From an uncultured Polaribacter sp. (lineage in GTDB: Bacteria > Bacteroidota > Bacteroidia > Flavobacteriales > Flavobacteriaceae): 45,636 bases of DNA. The position numbers and the translations under genes were made by a program. Of this stretch, positions 184 through 12,463 are shown one piece after another. The notes beneath the pieces are model-generated. The model ran no database searches. It was not told the origin of the DNA and saw nothing but the letters and a program-made list of their open reading frames with translations. The first letter of the stretch is position 1; each line of letters opens with the position of its first letter. The DNA lies in contig CAJQQH010000028.1 in assembly GCA_905480405.1 (NCBI GenBank), positions 1 through 45,636 on the forward strand, in the 5' to 3' direction.

Positions 184-1314
184 ATGAGTTTCGTTGAGTG
201 GTTTCTATCCTTTATTTACAAAATAAAGACGTTTCCTTTAATAATACAAATAACAATTGTATTAACACTAACCTTTATAGTTGTTACTTTTTCTGTACTT
301 ATTACTGTCTATGTAATTAGAAGAAAACATAATAAAGTACAGAAAAAGTTAAAAGATAGTCTTCCTAAAATTGAAGACCTTTTTAATGACGTCTTATTTA
401 GCGATAAAAAATATTCTGATGAAGAAGTTTTTAACAGCTTTGAAGATATAGTTGAAGAGGTTAACTACGAATCTCTTGATACAGGTTTAGATGTATTAGT
501 AGATATAAAAAACGACTCTAATAAAGAATCTGAAAAGTACCCCTTAATAATTAGTGCTTTAAACATAATAGAACATATAGAGAGTAAATTTGACTCTCGT
601 TCAAATAGTAGAAAAATGGATGCATTTCAGCAATCATTTGTACTTGGTTTAAATAGATTTGATTCTAAAATTCTACAATACGCTTACAGTAAAAATAAGA
701 AAATTAGAACTGAGGCAAGAAATTCATATTTAGCACTAAGTGCTAATGACCCTTATCGTTTTTTTGATGAAATAGAAGGATCACTTACTAAATGGGATGA
801 AATAGAATTAATGCAATACTTACAACAACAGAATAAAAGAGGTAATTTAGAGGGATTAGGAAAATGGATTAACTATTCTAAAAACACTTCACTTGTAGTT
901 TTTCTAATTAAAATGGTTGGTTATTTTAAACAAAGAGGTATTGATGAAATTTTAATTGATAAATTAGTACATGAAGATGCTAAAGTAAGAGCAGCATCTA
1001 TTGAAACTTTAGGTGAATTAAACTTAAAGGAAACCGAACAAACATTAATTGATCGATATTATACGGAGCCAGAGCTTTGTCAAATAGCAATTATAAAAAC
1101 AATTAGAAAATTCAATTCAGGAAAATCATTAAAATTTTTAGAACAAATTTTTAATGATTCGAATAGTACTGATATGAAAAAATTAATTGCAGAAGCTATA
1201 ATAAACTATAGTTACGAAGGAAAAATGTCTTTTCAAAACTTAAAAGAAACATTAACAGGTTTTGATTTACAAATTTTAAAACATATCGAAACACCAATAA
1301 TAAAATTTAAATAA
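184..1314 (+). CDS. Membrane-anchored HEAT-repeat protein, first gene of exopolysaccharide-type operon
   Basis: The protein has 376 residues. A single hydrophobic segment at about residues 17-46 is followed by a basic stop-transfer stretch (RRKHNKVQKK), so the rest is predicted to be cytoplasmic. From about residue 130 to the end it is alpha-helical with HEAT-like repeats, visible as VRAASIETLGEL near residue 275 and IRTEARNSYLAL near 175. HEAT arrays bind other proteins; no catalytic motif is seen. The stop codon abuts the ATG of the glycosyltransferase with no gap, which suggests translational coupling and a physical partnership. A role as the inner-membrane or cytoplasmic partner of the synthase, occupying the place of PgaD or BcsB, is inferred from position only. 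Confidence 0.8.
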   Translation: MSFVEWFLSFIYKIKTFPLIIQITIVLTLTFIVVTFSVLITVYVIRRKHNKVQKKLKDSLPKIEDLFNDVLFSDKKYSDEEVFNSFEDIVEEVNYESLDTGLDVLVDIKNDSNKESEKYPLIISALNIIEHIESKFDSRSNSRKMDAFQQSFVLGLNRFDSKILQYAYSKNKKIRTEARNSYLALSANDPYRFFDEIEGSLTKWDEIELMQYLQQQNKRGNLEGLGKWINYSKNTSLVVFLIKMVGYFKQRGIDEILIDKLVHEDAKVRAASIETLGELNLKETEQTLIDRYYTEPELCQIAIIKTIRKFNSGKSLKFLEQIFNDSNSTDMKKLIAEAIINYSYEGKMSFQNLKETLTGFDLQILKHIETPIIKFK

Positions 1315-2844
1315 ATGTTTGACATTTTTGTAAAGGTTTACGAATATTTTATATTCTTCTACGCAACTGCTTTAATACTTAGTTATATGGTGTTAGCTGT
1401 TTTTTCTTTTATATCAATAAATAGATATAAAAGTTATAATACAGATATCGATGACGAAGAGCTACTAAACTCTGAACTTGCACCGGGAATTTCTGTAATT
1501 GCACCTGCATATAACGAAGAAAAAACAATTATAATTAATGTAAAATCGCTATTAACGTTAAACTATCCGCTTTTTGAGGTAATTATTGTAAATGATGGTA
1601 GTAAAGACGATACTTTAGATTTACTAATTAAAGAATTTGATTTAGTTGAAGCACCTTTTGCATATGTAGAAAAAATTAAATCAAAGCCTTATAAAAGAAC
1701 TTTTAAATCTCAAAACCCTAAATACGATATATTAACAGTAATTGATAAAGAAAATGGTGGTACTAAAGCTGATGCATTTAATGCTGGTTTAAACGCTTCT
1801 GTATTTCCTTACTATTTAAATACTGATGTAGATTGTATTCTTGCAAGAAACACTTTATCTAAAATGATTAAGCCTGTTTTAAATTCTAAAACTAGAGTTA
1901 TTGCTGTAGGTGCTACCTTAAGAATGTCTAACAACTGTGATATTGAAGAAGGTGTAATTACACGTGTAAGACCACCAAAGGCATTAATTCCTCGTTTTCA
2001 GGAATTAGAATACATTAGGTCTTACCTTTTAGGAAAAATGGGATGGGAACTTATTAATGCTGTTCCTAATGTTTCTGGAGGCTTAGGTATGTTCGATAAA
2101 GAAATTGCCATTAAAGCCGGTGGTTATGGTGCCGATTCACATGCAGAGGACATGGATATGATGACTCGTATGGCGGTTCACATGATGAATAATAAGATTC
2201 CATATAAAATTGGATATATTCCTCTTTCATGCTGTTGGACAGAAGGACCTCCTAATATTCAAATTTTAGGACGTCAACGAACAAGATGGGCATCCGGTTT
2301 GTTTCAAATGTTTAGTGATCATAGAAAAATTTTATTTAATCCGAAGTACAAAAATTTAGGATTAATTACTTTTCCATATGTATTTATTTTTGAATTTCTA
2401 GCTCCAATTATTGAGGCTTTTGGTATTCTATTTACAATATTTTTGATATTTTTTGGTCAGGTTAATTGGACATTTGCTCCTTTAATTTTATTCTATTCCT
2501 ATGCATTTGCTGTTATGATTTCATCTATCGTAATAATTTGGGATCAGATGACGTTTAAATATTATAATACAACAAGAGAAGTATTAAAGTTATTTGTAAT
2601 TGCTTTAATAGAACCTTTTTTATATCATCCAATGATTATGTTCTTTTCTTTAAAAGGATATTTTAGTTTTATTACTTCTAGAGAATTAGCTTGGGGTACA
2701 ATGACTAGACAAGGGTTTGAAAAAGATAAAGATGGTAATGATAAAAATTCTGGAGATAAAGGTAATGATGAAACAAAACCTGGTATTTTTAGTAAATTAA
2801 AAAAGAATAAAGAATCAGATACATTTGAAGAGATTAAACCTTAA
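1315..2844 (+). CDS. Processive family 2 glycosyltransferase (polysaccharide synthase)
   Basis: This 509-residue inner-membrane GT2 has all hallmarks of processive synthases of the BcsA/PgaC/NodC/HasA kind. There is one N-terminal membrane segment (about 10-34), a GT-A domain with VNDGS at 92-96 (Asp94), the TDVD metal-binding motif at 170-173, AED at 277-279 supplying the catalytic base, and Q321-R-T-R324-W325 (QxxRW). Several membrane segments follow at about 350-450. A charged, low-complexity tail (470-509, rich in Lys, Asp, Gly) is probably cytoplasmic. No PilZ domain is seen, so direct c-di-GMP binding as in BcsA is unlikely. The product is probably a repeating homopolymer or disaccharide made from a nucleotide sugar; the sugar cannot be told from sequence. 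It lies between the HEAT protein and the TPR-barrel protein. Confidence 0.9.
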   Translation: MFDIFVKVYEYFIFFYATALILSYMVLAVFSFISINRYKSYNTDIDDEELLNSELAPGISVIAPAYNEEKTIIINVKSLLTLNYPLFEVIIVNDGSKDDTLDLLIKEFDLVEAPFAYVEKIKSKPYKRTFKSQNPKYDILTVIDKENGGTKADAFNAGLNASVFPYYLNTDVDCILARNTLSKMIKPVLNSKTRVIAVGATLRMSNNCDIEEGVITRVRPPKALIPRFQELEYIRSYLLGKMGWELINAVPNVSGGLGMFDKEIAIKAGGYGADSHAEDMDMMTRMAVHMMNNKIPYKIGYIPLSCCWTEGPPNIQILGRQRTRWASGLFQMFSDHRKILFNPKYKNLGLITFPYVFIFEFLAPIIEAFGILFTIFLIFFGQVNWTFAPLILFYSYAFAVMISSIVIIWDQMTFKYYNTTREVLKLFVIALIEPFLYHPMIMFFSLKGYFSFITSRELAWGTMTRQGFEKDKDGNDKNSGDKGNDETKPGIFSKLKKNKESDTFEEIKP

Positions 2845-2865
2845 AATGTACTCCAAAATATAAGT

Positions 2866-5838
2866 ATGAAAACGAACAAGTTATTTTACATCTTTGTCTT
2901 ATTTGCATTAAGTCAATTAAATACCTACTCACAAGTATTTGATTCTTCAGATTTATATTTTGAAGAAGCAAGAGCAGATATTAGAGCACAAAATTTTACA
3001 AAAGCGGCCAAAATGAGTTGGAGAGGTTTACAACTAGCTCCAGAAGACTTAGATTTAAAGGCTGTTTTAGGTAAAGCGAACTTAGAGCTTGGTAGATATG
3101 ATACTGCAAGATATGTATTAAAACAAGTTTATTTAAAAAGAAGAAAAGATCCAGAAATATTACAATATCTAGTTAAAATTGAACACACAACAAAAAGGTA
3201 TTCTGATGCCATTTGTTTTGTAAATGAATTATTAGAGATTACACCTTATAGTAGAGGTTGGTGGATGCGTAAAATTGTTATCTATGAAGAAATGGGTAAT
3301 TATGAAGAAGCAGAAAGGGCTTTAGAGAGATTATATCAACTGTATCCTAATGATACTGAAATTAAAAACCAATTCAACTATATAAAACTTAGAGATGCAA
3401 ACACAGCATTAGAAGGTAAAAACTATAACAAATCTAACGAAATTTATAAAACAATTATAGATAATACACCAGATAATAAAGACGCATACTTAGGTATTAT
3501 TAGAAACGAATTAGCAAAAGGAAACCCAGAAGCAGCTTTACAATACACTAATAGATCTTTATTAGAGTTACCTGGAGATAGGGTTTTAATTGAAAAAAAA
3601 ATTGGTTTATTAGAAACATTAGGTAGGCATGCAGAAGCAATTTCTTTTATAAATAGTAAGAACGTACCAAAAGATAAATTTCCTGACATACATTCTAGAA
3701 CTTTACCATATCTAATGCAACAAACTGCTAGCTTTAATGAGTATAACGATTCTTATGAAGTTAACAAAAGATTAGTTGAACTTAACGGAAATTCAGAATC
3801 ACAAGATTATGTTATAAAAAATTCACTAGGAAAAGGGTACGATGTAGATGCAGAATATTTTATAAAAAAAGCATTAAAGAGAAGTCCTAACAATAAGAAG
3901 TTAAGAATTCAATTAATGGAGCTTTATAAGCCCATGAAAACTAGAGAAAATTTTGAAAGAGAGGTTAAATTAAATCACGAACAATTTCCTAATGATTCTG
4001 ATGTAACTTTTGCCTTTAATACAATGATGTATAGAAAAGGTAAAGAATATACAGAAAACAAACAGTACGATCTTGCATTGCCAATTTTCACAGAATTAAC
4101 TTCTTTTCCAGATTTTACAAAAGAAGCAGAACAACAAATTTTTGGAATTCTTTTAGAATTGGGTAGACTTGATGAAGCAGAAGACCAAATAGATAAATTA
4201 ATAGGTTTAGACCCTGAAAACCCTGATTATTTATTAAGGAAATCTACGTTATACCAAGGAATGGGGCTTTATGACGATGCTTTAGATATTACAAGAAGTC
4301 TTGAACAGAAATTTCCTTTAAACGTAAGATACCCATCTGTTTATGTTAGCCAAGTAGAAGCTTATGCTACTTTTTTAATGAAAGAACAGCGTTATAGTAA
4401 AGTATTACCAGTAATTGAAGATGGATTGACCAGAGAAAATAATAACAAAAGACTATTAGATATGGCTATAAATGCCTCTTCTGCTATACCAGATTATCCA
4501 AAAGGAATTAATTATAGTTTAAGTGCATTAAGTTTTTACCCAAAAAACAAAAACTTTAAATTAAAGTTAACCAACTTATATACACAAAATAAAGAATACG
4601 ATAAGGCTTTAGTAATTTTAGATACTTTAAAAACAACTTACCGCTATGACAGAAAAATAAAGAATGCTGAAGCTGAAATTTTATTTTTTAGAGCAAAAAA
4701 TCAAGAAGAAAACGGTTTAGTAGATGAAGCTATTACTAATTATGATTCTGCTTATGCATTAAACCCTAATGATGAAGGGTCTTTAATGAGAATGATTAAT
4801 TTACATATTACTCAAAAACCTTATGACGAATCTTTAGATTTCATCAATAAAAAATTGGTAAAAAGCCCTAATGACAACTTTTTAAAATATAAAAAGGGGG
4901 TTGTTTTTGAAATGCAAAAACAATATGACTCTGCTTATTATTATCAAAGTTTTAGAAAACTAGATAATCCTTATGAGCAAATCGAATGGAAACATACTTT
5001 AGAAACTATTAGATCCGAAAATCTAAAAAATGAACTTGCAGTTACTTATTTAAAAGCAACTTCAGATTCGGTTGCATTTAATACTTCTTTAGCAAGTATT
5101 AATTACAGAAGAATAGAAGGCAGAAATACATTTGGTGCAGATATTAATTATGCAGCAAGAAGATCTGGTGTAGGTATACAAGGTGGAGTTAATATATCTA
5201 GAATTCTAACAGAAACTTTATATGCAGATGCTGGTATTTTAATTGGGTCAAAATTCTTTCCTCAATTTAAATTATATGCAAATGCTTATAAAGGTTTAAA
5301 AAGTGGTTATGAAGCACAAGTTGGTGTTAGTTATGCTAGGTTACAAAACGACCAGAATTACTTTACTTTAAAATTGGGTGCAGCTAAGACCTGGCAAGAC
5401 TTTACAGTGAATGCTCGATTATCATTAATGAATACTTCTGTGCAGTTTTATGAAACAGATCCTGCTAACGGGTTATTAGTTTTAGATGCAAATGGATTAC
5501 CTATAGAAACTACATTAGAAAACTTTACATACACCAATTTAATGGTTCAAGGCCGGGTGAATTTAAATGCTAGAAAAGATTATTTTTCTTTAATTGTTTC
5601 TGGTGGTAGTGCTCCTTTTGATCAACAATTAGAGTTTCAATCAAACACGTTTTTAAATTTTACAAATGTTATGATTGGTGCAGGTTATAAATATAATATG
5701 TCACCAAGAACAGCAATTTTAGTAGACGGTACTTGGATTAACTTTCAAAGTAATCAAACATCTTTAAATTCTATAATTACGGATGTAATATTTACAAACC
5801 AATACAACCTATCTGTTTCACTAATTACTAAATTTTAA
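2866..5838 (+). CDS. TPR protein with C-terminal YaiO-type outer-membrane beta-barrel, putative polysaccharide exporter
   Basis: The protein has 990 residues. A signal peptide (about 1-22, ending NTYSQ) is followed by roughly 700 residues of tetratricopeptide repeats, with recurrent A-x-x-x-Y and P-N-D/P-E-N helix-turn signatures (for example YPNDTEIK, DPENPDYLL, NPNDEGSLM). From about residue 735 the sequence changes to alternating strands rich in Tyr, Gly and Asn and ends in Phe, as outer-membrane barrels do; it resembles the YaiO barrel family. The order signal peptide, periplasmic TPR scaffold, barrel is that of PgaA and BcsC, which move a growing glycan across periplasm and outer membrane. 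It starts 21 bases after the synthase stop. Export of the synthase product is inferred from this order and linkage. Confidence 0.85.
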   Translation: MKTNKLFYIFVLFALSQLNTYSQVFDSSDLYFEEARADIRAQNFTKAAKMSWRGLQLAPEDLDLKAVLGKANLELGRYDTARYVLKQVYLKRRKDPEILQYLVKIEHTTKRYSDAICFVNELLEITPYSRGWWMRKIVIYEEMGNYEEAERALERLYQLYPNDTEIKNQFNYIKLRDANTALEGKNYNKSNEIYKTIIDNTPDNKDAYLGIIRNELAKGNPEAALQYTNRSLLELPGDRVLIEKKIGLLETLGRHAEAISFINSKNVPKDKFPDIHSRTLPYLMQQTASFNEYNDSYEVNKRLVELNGNSESQDYVIKNSLGKGYDVDAEYFIKKALKRSPNNKKLRIQLMELYKPMKTRENFEREVKLNHEQFPNDSDVTFAFNTMMYRKGKEYTENKQYDLALPIFTELTSFPDFTKEAEQQIFGILLELGRLDEAEDQIDKLIGLDPENPDYLLRKSTLYQGMGLYDDALDITRSLEQKFPLNVRYPSVYVSQVEAYATFLMKEQRYSKVLPVIEDGLTRENNNKRLLDMAINASSAIPDYPKGINYSLSALSFYPKNKNFKLKLTNLYTQNKEYDKALVILDTLKTTYRYDRKIKNAEAEILFFRAKNQEENGLVDEAITNYDSAYALNPNDEGSLMRMINLHITQKPYDESLDFINKKLVKSPNDNFLKYKKGVVFEMQKQYDSAYYYQSFRKLDNPYEQIEWKHTLETIRSENLKNELAVTYLKATSDSVAFNTSLASINYRRIEGRNTFGADINYAARRSGVGIQGGVNISRILTETLYADAGILIGSKFFPQFKLYANAYKGLKSGYEAQVGVSYARLQNDQNYFTLKLGAAKTWQDFTVNARLSLMNTSVQFYETDPANGLLVLDANGLPIETTLENFTYTNLMVQGRVNLNARKDYFSLIVSGGSAPFDQQLEFQSNTFLNFTNVMIGAGYKYNMSPRTAILVDGTWINFQSNQTSLNSIITDVIFTNQYNLSVSLITKF

Positions 5839-5862
5839 AAATTGTAATTAAAGATTTTCTTA

Positions 5863-8043
5863 ATGAAGCTAATAAAGTACATTTATATTGTTATGTTTTT
5901 TTTAAGTCTAACTTCTTGCGCACAAAATAAAGTGACGCTTTACTCTAAAAAACATAAAATATATCCAAAAATAAATATACCACTTTCTGCTGATAAACTT
6001 TTAAGTAATGCTGCAGATGATTTTAATAAAAATTTTAGAGCACTTACAGGACAATATTTAACAGTAGAAAGAGCTAATAGTTTAAACAAAAACTATAACT
6101 ATGTTATTATTAGAGTTAACCCTACTCAAAAAGATAGTTATTGTTTATATAAAAAAGGAAGGAATATTACTATACAAGGTAAAACTACACAAGACTTAGT
6201 TTATGGTATAAATACATTTTTTAAAAAATATACTAGTTTAACATTAAACGATATAGAAAATACAATACAACAAAAAAATACTAAATCAGAAATAGAAATT
6301 CCGAATGAGTTTAGTAGTTGTTCATCTCCAGACTTTGAATATAGAGAACCTTATTTTTCTTCAAACTTTGCGCCTAATTTTAGAGGTTGGAATAAAACAA
6401 ATTATCTTGAATTAGAATGGGGAATCTGGGGACATAATCTAAAAAAAATACTAAAAGGCTACCCTTTACATAAGTCCATTTATGCGAAAGTTGGTAACAA
6501 GAGAATTGAAAGTCAATATTGTTTTACTAGCGATAGTTTATTTAAATATGTAAATAAAAAAGTAAAAGCCATATATGAAAGTGATAATGCACTTTCTAAA
6601 TATATGATATTACCTAACGATAATAATATTGTTTGTACTTGTAGTACTTGTAAAGCTGTTGGTAATACAACAGAAGATGCTGCTCCTGCAGTTTTTACGT
6701 TTTTAAATAAATTAGCTAAAAATTATAAAAAATTATCTTTCTTTACTGCCGCCTATATTACAATAAAAGAAATTCCAAAATTTAGAGTAGCATCAAATGT
6801 TGGGCTATTTTATAGTACAATAGATATTCAAAAAGGAATTCCTATAGAAAACACGAAGAACTTAAAAAAGTTTGAGAAAGAAATTACTAATTGGAGAAAA
6901 TATGTTAACAATGTATATATCTGGGATTACGCAGTTAATTATGATAATTACTTTGACATTTATCCTTCTATAAAAGTTAATCAACAAAACTTAAAACTTT
7001 ATAAAAAATTAGGGGTAAAAGGAGTTTTTGTTCATGGTAGTGAATATGGATATAGTACATTTCAAGATTTAAAATCAACCTTGTTAGCCAAACTCTTATG
7101 GAATACAGAGGTTAATATTGATGAAGAAATTAACACTTATTTTCACACAAAATTCTCAAAAAAACTAGCAAACTCATTAAGTAACTACTACTCGTTTATA
7201 GACAACTCTTTTTTTATTAGTAAAAAAGAATTAAGTATTTACAGCGGTATAGATAAGTCTATTAAAAAATATTTAGATCCAAAAGTTTTCTTTAGTTTTT
7301 ATGATGAATTTGATTTACATACGCAAACTAATAAGTACGATAAAGACTATTTAAGAATAGCTACAGCTCTTACTTTTCTAAAATTAGAAATAATGAGAGA
7401 TTCTGGTATTGGAACTTATGGTTTTGCAAACCTAAATAACGAACAAGAAATTATTGTAAAAAACGAGGCTGCATTATTATTAGATAAATTAAACGCTTAC
7501 AGTAAATCTGTTAGCCTTAAAACATACAATGAAAGGAATTATAAAATTGATGACTATATAAATAGCTGGAGAAGAACCATTTATAGATATCATAAAAGAA
7601 AACATTATTTTTATAAAAAACCTTTTGAAGTTTTATCTAAACTAGATGAAGATTATACAGATATCAGTGTTTTAAACAATGCTGCTTTTGGCTTAAAAGA
7701 TTATAATACAAATTGGCATATAAGTTCTTTAGATGATTTAATTTTAAAAATTAATAAGAAGGAAATTGCTGAATCTAAAAAAATTACATTTTCTTTTTTA
7801 CAAGATACTAAACATCATATTTATTACCCAAGTACAATTGAAATTTTAGACAAAGATTTAAATGTAATAAAAGAACATAATTTATCTTTAGATTCTGTTC
7901 TTTTAAATACAAAAGAAGTAACAATAATTTTACCTACAGAGTTTGATGATGAGCAATTACCCGAAGATTTTATTATTAAAATAAACAAACGTAAAATCGT
8001 TGGTAAAAATGCTTTAGCATGTGATGAAATCATCTTTAATTAA
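5863..8043 (+). CDS. DUF4838 glycoside-hydrolase-like lipoprotein
   Basis: The protein has 726 residues. An N-terminal signal ends in a lipobox (LTSC, Cys19); no Lys-Asp/Glu surface-export signal follows the cysteine, so a periplasm-facing outer-membrane lipoprotein is likely. Residues about 40-125 look like the small alpha/beta domain that precedes the barrel in GH20/GH67-type enzymes (ADKLLSNAADDFNKNF, then DLVYGINTFF). A TIM-barrel-like region covers about 155-420, with CTCSTC at 258-263, WDYAVNYDNYF at 354-364 and EYGYST at 394-399, all features of DUF4838. The C-terminal part (about 420-726) is helical, then strand-rich. It sits 24 bases after the barrel gene, in the slot used by PgaB or BcsZ, so it may cut or trim the polymer. 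Catalysis has not been shown for this family to my knowledge. Confidence 0.8.
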   Translation: MKLIKYIYIVMFFLSLTSCAQNKVTLYSKKHKIYPKINIPLSADKLLSNAADDFNKNFRALTGQYLTVERANSLNKNYNYVIIRVNPTQKDSYCLYKKGRNITIQGKTTQDLVYGINTFFKKYTSLTLNDIENTIQQKNTKSEIEIPNEFSSCSSPDFEYREPYFSSNFAPNFRGWNKTNYLELEWGIWGHNLKKILKGYPLHKSIYAKVGNKRIESQYCFTSDSLFKYVNKKVKAIYESDNALSKYMILPNDNNIVCTCSTCKAVGNTTEDAAPAVFTFLNKLAKNYKKLSFFTAAYITIKEIPKFRVASNVGLFYSTIDIQKGIPIENTKNLKKFEKEITNWRKYVNNVYIWDYAVNYDNYFDIYPSIKVNQQNLKLYKKLGVKGVFVHGSEYGYSTFQDLKSTLLAKLLWNTEVNIDEEINTYFHTKFSKKLANSLSNYYSFIDNSFFISKKELSIYSGIDKSIKKYLDPKVFFSFYDEFDLHTQTNKYDKDYLRIATALTFLKLEIMRDSGIGTYGFANLNNEQEIIVKNEAALLLDKLNAYSKSVSLKTYNERNYKIDDYINSWRRTIYRYHKRKHYFYKKPFEVLSKLDEDYTDISVLNNAAFGLKDYNTNWHISSLDDLILKINKKEIAESKKITFSFLQDTKHHIYYPSTIEILDKDLNVIKEHNLSLDSVLLNTKEVTIILPTEFDDEQLPEDFIIKINKRKIVGKNALACDEIIFN

Positions 8044-8063
8044 AAATTATTAAATTTACAATA

Positions 8064-8591
8064 ATGAAAAATATATTTTGGCTCTTACTAATCGTTCTTT
8101 TTTCTTCCTCTTGCGAGTTTAGAAAACCGGATATTGAAAACGTAGATAAAACGAAAATGGAAATTATAGATCCAGAACGTAGCTACTACCCTATTTTACG
8201 TGGATCAGAATTATCTACATCATATCAGTTTTACAACAGAGGTAACCAACCATTAATTATTTACGATGTACAAGCATCTTGTGGTTGTATAGAAGTAGAT
8301 TTTCCTTCTGGATCGATAGGTAAAGATGATTTTGGATATATAAATATTGATTATGACAGTGCCAAAAATATAGGTTATGTAGAGTTTTATATAACGATTG
8401 TTGCCAATACAGAAAAAGATATTTTTAGTACAATTAAGTTTGACTTAACGGTTGTTACTTCTCCACATTACACCCAAGACTACGAAGAAATATATTTAGA
8501 TAGAAGAAAGAAAAAATTAGCTGGTGAAGTTGATGGTGATTTAACACAACAAGGTTATATGACTCCTGACGAAACTAAAACAGTTAGATAA
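8064..8591 (+). CDS. DUF1573 lipoprotein
   Basis: This 175-residue protein has a lipobox at SSSC (about residue 17). The core matches DUF1573, an Ig-like domain common in Bacteroidota: YQFYNRGNQPLIIYDVQASCGCIEVDFP, here beginning near residue 55, followed by a second strand group (YVEFYITIVAN). The SCGC cysteine pair is characteristic. DUF1573 domains resemble ASPM/SPD-2/Hydin-type folds and have no assigned activity. The C-terminus is charged and not part of the domain. The gene starts 20 bases after the DUF4838 gene, so it is cotranscribed with the polysaccharide genes, and a structural or scaffolding role in the envelope complex is possible but inferred. Confidence 0.85.
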   Translation: MKNIFWLLLIVLFSSSCEFRKPDIENVDKTKMEIIDPERSYYPILRGSELSTSYQFYNRGNQPLIIYDVQASCGCIEVDFPSGSIGKDDFGYINIDYDSAKNIGYVEFYITIVANTEKDIFSTIKFDLTVVTSPHYTQDYEEIYLDRRKKKLAGEVDGDLTQQGYMTPDETKTVR

Positions 8592-8615
8592 TTTATAAAA
8601 TTAAAAAATAAAACA

Positions 8616-8990
8616 ATGAAAGCAAAATATCAAAGTGTTCTTGATTTAGGTCAAGAATTAGAAATTAAAGATGGGAATGTGAACGAAGAAAATGGTGTTT
8701 TACATGTAACAGGAACTGCTAAAAACCAATATGAAAAAAATCTTATTTGGGATAAAATTAAAGAAGTTGGTGGTGACAACCCTACAGATATAGTAGCAGA
8801 TATTTCTGTAACAGACACATCTGTATATGCAAACCATACTGTAAAAAGTGGAGATACTTTAGGTAAAATAGCAAAACAATATTATGGGAATGCAATGAAA
8901 TACACAGCTATTTTTGAAGCAAATACTAATATCTTAAAAAGTCCAGATGTAATTCATCCAGGTCAAGAATTAGTAATTCCAAACTTATAA
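8616..8990 (+). CDS. BON-LysM protein of the Kbp/YgaU type
   Basis: The protein has 124 residues. Residues about 1-70 resemble a BON fold (LEIKDGNVNEENGVLHVTGTA, then VADISV). Residues about 73-122 are a LysM domain: HTVKSGDTLGKIAKQYYGNAMKYTAIFEAN...IHPGQELVIP. This two-domain plan and length match Escherichia coli Kbp (YgaU), a potassium-binding cytosolic protein; no signal peptide is present, so the LysM is probably not meeting peptidoglycan. The gene starts 24 bases after DUF1573 and is followed by a strong terminator, making it the last gene of the operon. Whether it serves the polysaccharide system or is a passenger is unclear. Confidence 0.85.
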   Translation: MKAKYQSVLDLGQELEIKDGNVNEENGVLHVTGTAKNQYEKNLIWDKIKEVGGDNPTDIVADISVTDTSVYANHTVKSGDTLGKIAKQYYGNAMKYTAIFEANTNILKSPDVIHPGQELVIPNL

Positions 8991-9006
8991 TTAGAAATAA
9001 GATTTA

Positions 9007-9039
9007 AAAAAAACCGAAACAAATTGTTTCGGTTTTTTT
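9007..9039 (+). terminator. Rho-independent terminator of the polysaccharide operon
   Basis: ACCGAAAC and its complement pair around an AAATT loop (9021-9025), extended by an A run at 9007-9013 and a T7 run at 9033-9039. It lies 17 bases after the last stop codon. Confidence 0.9.
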
Positions 9040-9046
9040 ATATTTG
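9039..9046 (+). promoter_or_regulatory. -7 box (TATATTTG) for the small membrane protein pair
   Basis: An exact TAnnTTTG match overlaps the end of the terminator T run and lies 18 bases before the ATG at 9065. No TTG is seen at the usual -33 distance. Confidence 0.5.
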
Positions 9047-9064
9047 AATAACAAAAATTAAATA

Positions 9065-9331
9065 ATGACAACAGAAGAAAAGAAAGATAGTTTTATAAAA
9101 TATTGGGAACAAAAAAGAGAAAATAGAATTAAATATTCAATAATACAAAGTCTCTATTTTGCAATTCCATTTAGTATTATTTTTCAGGCTATAGAAGATT
9201 TAAAAGGTTTTATTACTTTACAATTTGGGTTTAAACTTCTTACTATTTTTAGTATTTATTTCTTACTTACTTATTATGTTTCTTTTAAGATTCATGAAAA
9301 AAAATACTTAAAATATAAAAATAAAGCTTAG
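9065..9331 (+). CDS. Small two-span membrane protein, unknown
   Basis: This 88-residue protein is not recognised. It has a charged N-terminus (TTEEKKDSF...WEQKRENR), then two hydrophobic segments at about 28-46 and 53-72 separated by a short loop containing EDLKG, and a Lys-rich C-terminus. Both ends are predicted to be cytoplasmic. It has its own -7 box and lies four bases before the next gene, with which it is probably cotranscribed. No motif suggests a function. Confidence 0.7.
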   Translation: MTTEEKKDSFIKYWEQKRENRIKYSIIQSLYFAIPFSIIFQAIEDLKGFITLQFGFKLLTIFSIYFLLTYYVSFKIHEKKYLKYKNKA

Positions 9332-9335
9332 AATT

Positions 9336-9938
9336 TTGATCGCTAATAAAAATAAATTTATTAAAGAAATTCTTAAAGCACTTATAAAACTAATAATTGC
9401 TGGTGTACTTATTGGTGTATTAAAACAGTATGATTTAATCATTGCTATACTCCTATTATTAAAAATTACCTATAATATTTACACAGAAATCATTCAACCA
9501 AAAACAAATAAAAATTGGTTGTTATTAGTTGGAATGTTACTAACAGGTTTTGGAGGTATTGTTGGTGAAACTTGGGGTGTTAAAAGTGGTTATTGGGAAT
9601 ATCATGAAGTTACAAGAGAACTACCGTTATGGTTACCTTTTGCTTGGATTCTTGCTTTCCATTATTTATATAAAGTAGAAAGAAATTTAATTCCGCTTTT
9701 AACAAATCAATCACAAAAAAATAAAATAGTTTTAGCAATAATTCTTGCCTTAATTTTACCTGCTTTTGGAGAAGTCGTTACTATTTATTTAGGAGTTTGG
9801 ACTTATTATTGGCCTTACCAACTACTTGGTGTTCCTTTATATGCTTTTATATGTTTAGTTTTTGTACACATGCTTGTATACACTCTTTTACATTTTATCT
9901 GTAAAAAATATAAAATAAACGATTTAGTTTTTAATTAA
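9336..9938 (+). CDS. Multi-pass membrane protein, unknown; TTG start
   Basis: The 200-residue frame opens with TTG at 9336, because an in-frame stop (9309-9311) lies between it and the nearest upstream ATG and the next internal Met is at residue 67. About six hydrophobic segments are visible. Conserved-looking features are GGIVGETWGVKSGYWEYHEV (about 73-92), PLWLPFAWILAFHYLYKVER, and a second GEVVTIYLGVWTYYWPY repeat of the same plan (about 145-161). The two G-E-x(n)-G-x-W-x-Y units suggest an internal duplication. The Glu and Trp/Tyr-rich loops recall integral-membrane cyclase or desaturase families of carotenoid type, but no match is certain. It ends at a bidirectional terminator shared with rlmF. 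Confidence 0.65.
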   Translation: MIANKNKFIKEILKALIKLIIAGVLIGVLKQYDLIIAILLLLKITYNIYTEIIQPKTNKNWLLLVGMLLTGFGGIVGETWGVKSGYWEYHEVTRELPLWLPFAWILAFHYLYKVERNLIPLLTNQSQKNKIVLAIILALILPAFGEVVTIYLGVWTYYWPYQLLGVPLYAFICLVFVHMLVYTLLHFICKKYKINDLVFN

Positions 9939-9954
9939 GGTAGGGTAAAAAAAA

Positions 9955-9983
9955 ATAACCTTTCTTCATTGAAAAAAGGTTAT
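9955..9983. terminator. Bidirectional terminator between convergent genes
   Basis: ATAACCTTT at 9955-9963 pairs with AAAGGTTAT at 9975-9983. An A-rich run precedes it and the region after it is T-rich, so it can serve both the + strand membrane protein gene and rlmF on the - strand. Confidence 0.75.
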
Positions 9984-10015
9984 ATAATTATTGTTTTTTA
10001 TTAAAAATTACCAAC

Positions 10016-10870
10016 TTAATATCTCCAACAAGCAATTCTAGTTACCTTATTTCCTTGATTCATCGAAATAGTTTTAAACTCTTTTGCACCTAGTTTTTTA
10101 GCAGACTTTTGTAAACTATCTATATTATCTTTTTTAGAAACTAAGCTTGTAAACCATTTACTAGATTCTTTAAATAAAGAGCTTTCGTATAAATAATTAT
10201 GCAAAAAAGCTTTTTCGCCACCAACATACCACAGCTCATTATTGTTACCAGAAAAATTTCTAACTGCGCTATTACCTAAATTCTTATTTTTACGTTTATT
10301 AGCTCCTTGTGCTTCTTCTGCCGATCTATAAAAGGGCGGATTACACATAATAGCAGAAAAAGAATCATCATCTTTTAAAACACCTTTTAAAATATTGTTT
10401 TCATCAAACTGCTGTCGTAATTCTATTTTATCACTAAAATTATTGTCATCAATATTATCTTGTGATGTGTCTAAAGAATCTAGATCAATATCAGTCGCAA
10501 CAAAATCCCAATTATTTTCGGCTACACCTAAAAGTGGGTAAATACACGTAGCTCCTGTACCAATATCTAAAACTTTTACATTTTCTTCTTCAGAAAGTAA
10601 ATCTGTTAAATAAAGAATGTAATCTAACCTTCCAGGAATTGGTGGGCAAAGATTTTGATCAGGAAAGTTCCAAACAGAAATCTTTTCATAAGAAAATAAC
10701 AATGCTTTATTTAATTCTTTTACGGCTTCTGGTATAGAAAAATCGATTGTAACAACATCAAATTTATTCTTAGAAACATATGCTTCTAATTTAGGATTTG
10801 TTAGTATTAATTCTTCAAAATTATATCCTTTATTAAATTTATTCTTTGGGTGAAGATTTTTTTCTTTCAT
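10016..10870 (-). CDS. rlmF: 23S rRNA (adenine-N6) methyltransferase RlmF
   Basis: This 284-residue protein belongs to the RlmF (YbiN) family, which methylates A1618 of 23S rRNA using S-adenosylmethionine. The start HPKNKFNKGYNFEEL, the AdoMet-binding motif LDIGTGA (101-107), the acidic ATDIDLDSL (about 125-133), the catalytic NPPF (177-180) and the downstream ELWYVGGEKAF segment are all typical. The Asn-Pro-Pro-Phe motif is that of N6-adenine methyltransferases. The ATG overlaps the bshC stop by one base (TAATG), so the two are translationally coupled. The start is supported by the conserved N-terminus. Confidence 0.93.
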   Translation of the reverse strand: MKEKNLHPKNKFNKGYNFEELILTNPKLEAYVSKNKFDVVTIDFSIPEAVKELNKALLFSYEKISVWNFPDQNLCPPIPGRLDYILYLTDLLSEEENVKVLDIGTGATCIYPLLGVAENNWDFVATDIDLDSLDTSQDNIDDNNFSDKIELRQQFDENNILKGVLKDDDSFSAIMCNPPFYRSAEEAQGANKRKNKNLGNSAVRNFSGNNNELWYVGGEKAFLHNYLYESSLFKESSKWFTSLVSKKDNIDSLQKSAKKLGAKEFKTISMNQGNKVTRIACWRY

Positions 10871-12463
10871 TATAATTCTACTACTGTAAATTCTAATTGT
10901 AAAGGTTTTAAAGTACCTTTTAAAACTTTAATAAATAATTCTCCATATTCTAAATAATATTCAGAAAAGTTACGCTGTCTCTCTTCTAAAGATTGATTAG
11001 GAAGTATTTTATTCTGTAATTCTGTAATTCTATCAACTAAATCTTTTTGCCTTTTCTTTTCTGCTTTTAACAAGCGTTTCTCTAGGCTTTCTAATCCTTT
11101 AATTTGTTTTCTTTCTTGTGCATTAACTGCATTTACAAAAGAAACATCCGTTTTCTTTGCAACATCTTTTAAATCTGCAAATTGATTTTGTAAAAATTGA
11201 ATTTTCTCTTTAAAATCTGTTTTTATATCTGAATTCTCAATTATTTTTTTTTGATAATAAATTATGCTGCTTTAAAAATAATTCTTCGAATGAAATATTT
11301 AGTCTTTTTAATTTTTTCGTTTGTTTTTCTGATATTACTTGTACTGAGTTACGTAATAATAAAATAGGAAAAGGAATATTTACTTTTTCAAAATATGCTT
11401 TTAACTCAAACCAATATGCCATTTCTCCACCACCACCAATATAACAAAGGTTTGGTAAGACTACTTCTTGATACAAAGGTCTCATAATTACATTTGGCGA
11501 AAAAGCTTTAGGGTTTTTATCAACTTCTGCAAGAACTTCTGCCTTTGTAAAAACAATATCTGTGTTATTTACTTTATAAACATTGTTTTCATAAATAATT
11601 CGTTCTCTAAAATTATCGCCCAAATAAAACAAATTAATTTCTCTTGGGTTTACCTGAATTTTATAATTATTCTCAAGTTCTAAAATAGATTTAGAAACTT
11701 CTTTAAATGAAATATTATTTTCTAACTCTTCTTTTACAAAGGGATTAAATAATTTCTTTAATCTTGTATCATCACCATCAATAATTACCAAACCAAACTC
11801 ACCAAACAAACTATTTGCAATAAAACGTGTTGCTTCTGCTAAATTAGAATGTTTTAAATAAGCTTCAGAAAAAAGGTTTTTTAAATATTTTGCATTTTTA
11901 GAATTACCTAAATGACCTGAAAATACTTCAAAAACATCTTTTAATCCCTCAGTAGAAAAACGACCTACAGCTCCACCATCTTTTCTATTCCAAGAAACTT
12001 TTTTACCATCAAAATTAAAATAATTTATCTCATCAAAATCATGATCTTCCGTTGCCATCCAATAAATTGGGACAAAATTTTGTTCCGGAAACTTTTCTGT
12101 TAATTCTTCACATAAATTAATCGTAGAAATAATTTTATACAAAAAATACAAAGGACCAGTAAATAAGTTTAACTGATGGCCTGTAGTAATCGTAAACGTA
12201 TTTTGTAATTTTAATAAATCTATATTTTCTTTTGTTTTTTCTGAAGTTTTAACGGCAGTATATTGATTATTTAAAGCATCAACTAAAGTAAACCTACTTT
12301 GAAGCCTAAATGATTTTTGTTTTTCTTCAATTTGATTATGGAAACCTGATATATCAGGAAAATTATTATAAAACGGTTTTATATTTTCATTTTTCTCTAA
12401 ATAATGATGCATCGTTTTAGAGAAAAAACCTGTTTTTTGAAAAGGGATTTGCGTTACTTTCAT
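10870..12463 (-). pseudogene. bshC: Bacillithiol cysteine ligase BshC, split by a frameshift in a nine-A run
   Basis: BshC adds cysteine to GlcN-malate, the last step of bacillithiol synthesis. The first part (start 12463) reads 408 residues with typical BshC sequence (ATG, TITTGHQLNLFTGPLYFLYK, VPIYWMATEDHDFDEIN, the tract ending EVVLPNLCYIGGGGEMAYW) and stops at 11237-11239 after LLSKKNN. In the coding strand, nine A's (+ strand T's at 11244-11252) precede this stop. Removing one base continues as KKIIENSDIKTDFKEKI and runs open to 10870, ending with the coiled-coil and KPLQLEFTVVEL. The joined product would be 530 residues, the normal BshC length. The tail is intact and has no other stop, so the shift is either recent, a sequencing error, or bridged by slippage on the A run. 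Overlap with rlmF is TAATG. Confidence 0.9.

Follow-up and report, generated by a model that had tools for sequence, protein, structure and literature searches.

A putative synthase-dependent exopolysaccharide module in Polaribacter and its relatives across Bacteroidota

The locus and its five-gene module

The window analysed here is a stretch of 45,636 nucleotides from an uncultured Polaribacter sp. (contig CAJQQH010000028.1, assembly GCA_905480405.1), at the start of which six co-directional open reading frames (ORFs) fill positions 184-8990 with intergenic gaps of 0-24 bp. We report that five of these genes form a module gained or lost as a block, that this operon belongs, as one branch, to a larger family built on a HEAT-GT2-TPR/YaiO-barrel core, and that it probably represents a novel form of the already known synthase-dependent exopolysaccharide secretion. 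All six ORFs lie at the place and on the strand given in a preliminary description of this DNA, and the domains assigned there were matched by Pfam (within a Pfam/NCBIfam scan of ten ORFs, 184-12463), BON only below its cut-off:

184-1314, plus strand: HEAT-repeat protein, 376 residues (HEAT_2, PF13646, E 1.1e-8)
1315-2844, plus strand: putative membrane GT2 polysaccharide synthase, 509 residues (PF00535/PF13632)
2866-5838, plus strand: TPR protein with YaiO-like outer-membrane barrel, 990 residues (TPR_19; PF19413, E 2.8e-14; signal peptide)
5863-8043, plus strand: DUF4838 protein, predicted GH163-like glycosidase, 726 residues (PF16126; lipobox-like LTSC)
8064-8591, plus strand: DUF1573 (Ig-like) protein, probable lipoprotein, 175 residues (PF07610, E 4.7e-17); last gene of the module
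8616-8990, plus strand: BON-LysM protein, 124 residues (LysM match; BON match below cut-off); neighbour, not a module member

Since the contig, which begins 183 bp upstream of the HEAT ORF, opens with 66 bp encoding the C-terminus of lpdA (21 residues identical to lpdA of locus L064), no upstream module gene is truncated.

The preliminary description had made its case depend on a conserved linkage of GT2 and TPR-barrel genes, and this linkage is strong at both locus and genome level. All 21 loci from named genomes with a close GT2 relative show the order HEAT-GT2-TPR/barrel-DUF4838-DUF1573, DUF1573 following DUF4838 in every one, and this order recurs in L209, L210 and L212, which represent other families of the class. 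Within the 21 loci ORFs are split in several (e.g. L035, L048, L049, L052), small ORFs intervene in some, and L035, L046, L048, L049 and L051 have a shorter DUF4838 ORF. GT2 is much the best conserved of the proteins aligned, identities in the distant alignment rows being 58-67% for GT2, 26-40% for HEAT, 27-34% for the TPR-barrel and 29-31% for DUF4838. Branch-I GT2 proteins (862-955 bits) occur in 12 of 58 Polaribacter genomes, and DUF4838 passes its cut-off in 13, namely the same 12 and one genome, 76% complete, in which the match is partial. Separately, one metagenomic ORF (P0045), which has an internal signal-peptide-like stretch, continues from GT2 into the start of the TPR protein (signal peptide and first TPRs); this fusion probably reflects loss of a stop codon or faulty assembly and was excluded from the evidence.

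The interval from lpdA to bshC was mapped in 20 Polaribacter loci picked from 56 genomes with a BshC match. The five genes are present in four of these loci and absent from 16, and in 14 of the 16 module-less loci the BON-LysM gene stands directly after lpdA (gap 127-259 bp; no LysM gene is labelled after lpdA in the remaining two). Where the module is present, HEAT starts 108-121 bp past lpdA, and in three of the four loci a LysM gene starts 24-31 bp past DUF1573. The five genes are thus gained or lost as a block at one site, and LysM belongs to the site. Since LysM follows lpdA where the other five genes are absent, the module comprises five genes and not the six of the operon first described; LysM is ruled out as a sixth member and is a resident neighbour, perhaps co-transcribed with the module (24 bp gap). 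A LysM gene is labelled in seven of the 21 named-genome loci, and it follows DUF1573 in none of the eight more distant ones (L043-L049, L052; L047 ends right after DUF1573).

The encoded proteins

The GT2 residues D94, D171/V172/D173, E278-D279 and Q321-R322-x-R324-W325 show no substitution among 12 aligned orthologues, drawn from Polaribacter through Chitinophaga and F. columnare records; every motif residue named in the preliminary description is thereby retained, and E278 is added to them. The QRxRW motif marks processive enzymes. Considering these motifs together with the GT2 domains and the C-terminal membrane segments, which the protein keeps according to hydropathy, GT2 has the features of an inner-membrane synthase and is predicted to polymerise. 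Its upstream partner, the HEAT protein, carries a single N-terminal hydrophobic segment (about residues 11-47) and is proposed to scaffold or regulate the synthase on the cytoplasmic side. HEAT proteins of 554-962 residues, containing extra sequence, were seen in nine loci (L120-L128), each with a receiver-only protein directly upstream.

For the third protein, the YaiO domain PF19413 scores 53.9 bits (cut-off 23.9) and TIGR04390 scores 32.1 (cut-off 32), and an AlphaFold2 model places 39 helices (residues 28-717) before a C-terminal 14-stranded barrel (722-989), with a predicted local distance difference score (pLDDT) of 82.5 and a predicted TM-score (pTM) of 0.46. We propose from the TPR and YaiO matches and from this model that it is an outer-membrane beta-barrel with TPRs, a candidate exporter in which the barrel may act as the pore.

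The DUF4838 protein matches PF16126 with 157.7 bits (cut-off 26.6). Neither the protein nor its profile found a relative by sequence among PDB chains, and fold comparison alone gave one: the best solved match of the model is 6q63 (B. thetaiotaomicron BT0459, GH163; identity 11-15%), and the modelled fold would be that of a solved GH163 member. With its N-terminal signal/lipobox-like stretch the protein is a putative periplasmic trimming enzyme, its activity being predicted from the modelled fold. Of the 40 DUF4838 matches that pass the cut-off across the order, 25 have a GT2-family match no more than 10 kb away, and 34 come from genomes that carry the family. In one further place (G303:C1:3790257-3792429) DUF4838 stands beside a YaiO barrel with no GT2-family match nearby, perhaps a degraded or rearranged locus. 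The DUF1573 protein, a probable lipoprotein, is probably an envelope accessory of the module.

A larger GT2 family in Bacteroidota

By profile search, 107 of the 393 genomes sampled from the order (33 of 105 genera) carry the GT2 family, as do 99 of 392 sampled phylum-wide (53 of 178 genera). The YaiO domain (PF19413) was found in 109 of the 393 order genomes, including all 107 with the GT2 family, and the 286 genomes without the family gave two weak YaiO matches (E 1.7e-4 and 5.3e-5); the Fisher value of this pairing, 1.5e-95, is overstated and no true probability, the genomes being related. Presence and absence of the pair alternate inside single genera, for example the window's own and g17. 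The overlaps of GT2 with YaiO and with DUF4838 were computed from hand-copied coordinates of the profile matches.

The annotated loci are a chosen subset of the profile matches plus all 21 named-genome loci. For counts of gene arrangement, GT2 ORFs below 300 bits or shorter than 400 residues were dropped, after which 109 of 116 loci still gave rows (all but L035, L051, L061, L102, L104, L106 and L136), 110 rows in total and 106 of them distinct. Where one genome had a locus represented twice, the copy was removed only if its protein was identical. HEAT was counted above 15 bits and YaiO/TPR above 40 bits. In 102 of the 106 distinct members the gene just upstream of GT2, on the same strand, matches the HEAT profile, and a TPR/YaiO barrel lies within -4 to +5 genes in 94. 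Surrounding genes encode a receiver-only response regulator in 62, DUF4838 in 46 and a sulfatase-type domain, fused or separate, in 31, and the window's own arrangement recurs in 28. The 116 loci contain 1879 ORFs in all; 116 of them are labelled HEAT, and 112 of the HEAT ORFs directly precede a GT2-family ORF, a background count that speaks for specificity and not for independence, the HEAT profile having been built from the same family. In the most remote members, which come from other classes (L221, L225-L228), HEAT and YaiO score weakly or do not match at all. Genomes that have no barrel near GT2 carry a YaiO barrel elsewhere (e.g. G102, G254, G287).

In a GT2 tree (quick tree, midpoint root) the window and the 28 members sharing its arrangement form one clade of 29 (SH-aLRT, an approximate likelihood ratio test, 97); on the tree first built without the window GT2, the DUF4838 label requires 6 changes and the sulfatase label 9. 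No response regulator was found near GT2 in any of the 32 branch-I rows (identical rows included). The window's own genome holds a second, paralogous locus (L053, G000:C117:1-12000, positions 1780-8421) in which a receiver protein, HEAT, GT2, a sulfatase/LtaS-like protein with C-terminal TPRs and a TPR/YaiO barrel follow one another, its GT2 being 42% identical to that of the window. GT2 is fused to the sulfatase domain in Chryseobacterium-like genomes (L060 and others; genus label guessed), and in L099-L101 (g17, guessed to be Flavobacterium-like) a GT2-sulfatase/LtaS-like fusion is followed by YaiO and DUF4838, a single locus thus carrying both tailoring modules, with a similar arrangement in L131.

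One joint reading of these data, which we regard as evenly balanced between holding and failing, is that Bacteroidota possess a large lineage of their own of synthase-dependent, c-di-GMP-independent polysaccharide secretion. Its fixed core would consist of a receiver-only response regulator, a membrane HEAT scaffold, GT2 and a TPR/YaiO barrel. The polymer chemistry would be determined by tailoring enzymes that can replace one another, either a GH163-like trimming enzyme or an LtaS/BcsG-like phospho-transferase, and the window branch would be a derived one, in which the response regulator has disappeared and both DUF1573 and a long TPR domain have been acquired.

Proposed function and its alternatives

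Synthase-dependent exopolysaccharide systems are defined, following PMC9384988, by an inner-membrane synthase, a periplasmic modifying enzyme, a TPR plus outer-membrane beta-barrel protein and a secreted polymer. Considering the features set out above, we suggest that the module is likely to be such a system, independent of cyclic di-GMP (c-di-GMP), in which both the polymer and its export are predicted. The membrane GT2 would polymerise a nucleotide-sugar and extrude the chain across the inner membrane, as its motifs and membrane segments suggest, while the membrane-anchored HEAT protein would control or scaffold the synthase from the cytoplasmic side, possibly with the receiver-only response regulator that is encoded beside HEAT in other branches. 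The GH163-like lipoprotein may then cut or trim the chain in the periplasm, and the TPR superhelix may lead it to the YaiO-like barrel, where it would leave the cell, DUF1573 serving as an envelope accessory. The Pga/Bcs-like logic of the preliminary description (synthase, TPR-barrel, periplasmic glycan enzyme) is thus supported by domains and models, and polysaccharide export is the part of it that we infer; likewise its central claim, an undescribed synthase-dependent exopolysaccharide system, holds with partial support. Since PgaC is the named family closest to the synthase and a member of GH163 is known to cleave GlcNAc (N-acetylglucosamine), one may guess that the polymer contains N-acetylhexosamine (HexNAc), a tentative suggestion that falls somewhat short of being probable.

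As to control, no PilZ match was found in the ten ORFs scanned, and GGDEF gave 0 matches in the 92%-complete draft genome in a search that was positive in 8 of 14 control genomes, so that on sequence grounds c-di-GMP control is unlikely, in line with the earlier remark that no PilZ or c-di-GMP domain is present. Because HEAT and GT2 are so steadily adjacent and a response regulator stands beside HEAT in other branches, the sequence data suggest that the HEAT protein may be a regulatory adaptor of the synthase.

Expression data exist for Polaribacter dokdonensis MED152, in which co-culture with Micromonas commoda, compared with a glucose control, raised MED152_03905 (GT2) 8.8-fold and MED152_03915 (DUF4838, GH163) 18.5-fold; both are listed as enriched carbohydrate-active enzymes outside polysaccharide utilization loci, straight after evidence of GlcNAc use (PMC9870897). 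Since their tags are two genes apart, like GT2 and DUF4838 here, and since DUF4838 over its cut-off occurs in 58 Polaribacter genomes only with the module or as one partial match, these two genes very probably belong to the five-gene operon, and matrix building fits the operon better than GlcNAc feeding as a reading of their induction.

Several points weigh against an exopolysaccharide system. The polymer, the enzyme activity and the export are all predictions here, drawn from sequences and models. Matches of GT2 to solved structures span only its N-terminal nucleotide-binding part, no solved porin is among the listed Foldseek matches of the whole TPR-barrel model (TPR-type proteins only), and the match of the DUF4838 model to 6q63 has a Foldseek TM-score of only 0.35, with a root mean square deviation of 9.4 over 492 residues. 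Moreover, DUF4838 also occurs apart from the family, since of its 40 matches over cut-off in the order 15 are more than 10 kb away from a GT2-family match or in genomes without one, and 12 of the 106 family members have no barrel within -4 to +5 genes. The assignment of the MED152 genes to the operon comes from locus-tag spacing and the 58-genome survey, and not from the MED152 sequence; in the same co-culture GlcNAc-catabolic genes were up, as was MED152_03105 (a response regulator labelled GT2, 6-fold), which has no placement relative to the GT2 family (PMC9870897).

It is formally conceivable, if unlikely, that the product of GT2 is a short surface glycan, or one linked to lipid, and that the TPR/YaiO-like barrel is an assembly or anchoring factor and not an exporter, given that ceramide glucosyltransferase, together with other GT2s, appears among the sequence matches of GT2 to solved structures and that the literature matches listed include no paper on a YaiO-like barrel and describe no function for one. 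The QRxRW motif and C-terminal membrane segments kept in GT2 argue against a short glycan, through the link of this motif to processivity, and the GT2-TPR/YaiO barrel pairing in 107 of 107 genomes fits export better. Less probable still is a catabolic operon in which the DUF4838/GH163 protein degrades external HexNAc glycans: the characterised N-glycan-degrading member of GH163 (PMC10154615) and the co-induced GlcNAc-catabolic genes would suit it, but the ten ORFs (184-12463) contain no SusC/SusD or other uptake family over cut-off, the synthase is present in 12 of the 13 Polaribacter genomes with DUF4838 over cut-off, and the same core occurs without DUF4838 in other branches.

Equally improbable is that the operon is a diverged Pga (PNAG, i.e. 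poly-beta-1,6-GlcNAc) or Bcs (cellulose) system and not a separate lineage. PgaC/IcaA is indeed the best named family for GT2 (TIGR03937, 113.9 bits), and the PgaA (TIGR03939) and BcsC (NF008520) models touch the TPR part with 59.3 and 26.4 bits, but all these scores fall far under the curated cut-offs of 422.3, 366.65 and 858, and BcsA (TIGR03030) reaches 19 bits against 699.1. Membership of either family was rejected on these scores. Furthermore, no match to a PgaB-type de-N-acetylase (at E 0.01, the remaining genome not having been searched), PilZ or BcsB was found in the ten ORFs, and the accessory families differ.

The exopolysaccharide system proposed here shares with Pga (PgaABCD) a membrane GT2, TPRs fused to an outer-membrane barrel and a periplasmic enzyme with a glycoside hydrolase domain; unlike Pga, it has a GH163-like protein in place of the PgaB hydrolase, and HEAT and DUF1573 in addition. 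The PgaA barrel has 16 strands, whereas the barrel modelled here has 14. With Bcs (BcsA/B/C/Z) it shares the synthase, a long TPR-barrel and a periplasmic glycanase, and it differs from Bcs in the lack of PilZ and BcsB matches in the ten ORFs and of a GGDEF match in the genome, and in BcsA and BcsC scores far below cut-off. BcsG presumably shares the PF00884 superfamily. A likeness to Bcs with BcsG (phosphoethanolamine-cellulose; PMC11379886) is that sister branches link or fuse a PF00884 (sulfatase/LtaS-type) membrane enzyme to the synthase. The GH163 protein BT0459, the best structural match of the DUF4838 protein, differs from it in that the latter is encoded with a synthase.

A further comparison is with E. 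coli K-12 (376500-386500, L158), where yaiO, a split yaiX, yaiP (GT2) and yaiS (deacetylase) lie together. As here, a YaiO barrel gene lies near a GT2 gene, and YaiP aligns with the window GT2 at 225 positions with 23% identity (E 8e-8); unlike here, yaiX is split by IS2 and no HEAT, TPR or DUF4838 gene is annotated. E. coli YaiO showed no BLASTP similarity to the YaiO-type protein of the window's own genome, although the Pfam YaiO model does match in E. coli. The yai genes are a possible remnant of a GT2/YaiO polysaccharide locus outside Bacteroidota.

No description of the system was found in the open-licence literature, judged by titles and abstract openings among the matches listed; subscription papers lay outside this scope, and a description elsewhere is possible. 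PMC9870897 is the only paper naming DUF4838 in the open-licence literature searched, a word search of the main text of the biofilm-operon survey PMC7112194 found neither Bacteroidetes nor Flavobacter nor YaiO, and the accessible part of PMC12419801 contains no description of the system that we could find. The family thus appears undescribed across Bacteroidota. The earlier statement that no characterised Bacteroidota counterpart is known stands for this literature, and needs amending in that a broader modular family exists, of which the operon is a single branch and which has a second locus in the same genome. Bacteroidota are major marine degraders of algal polymers, and in our view their degradation is better known than their own matrix. 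If our proposal is correct, about a quarter of the sampled phylum genomes (99 of 392) hold an unrecognised exopolysaccharide secretion family with control unlike the c-di-GMP paradigm, and the 9- to 18-fold induction in the Polaribacter-phytoplankter co-culture would reflect matrix building and not GlcNAc feeding.

Downstream of the module, two small hydrophobic ORFs (9065-9938), the second weakly DUF6989-like, lie between LysM and rlmF, and relatives of one or both occupy the same position in most mapped Polaribacter loci. The BshC ORF that follows (10900-12463) encodes 408 residues, against open frames of 530-567 residues in most relatives, and the frame appears interrupted, by either a real mutation or an assembly error.

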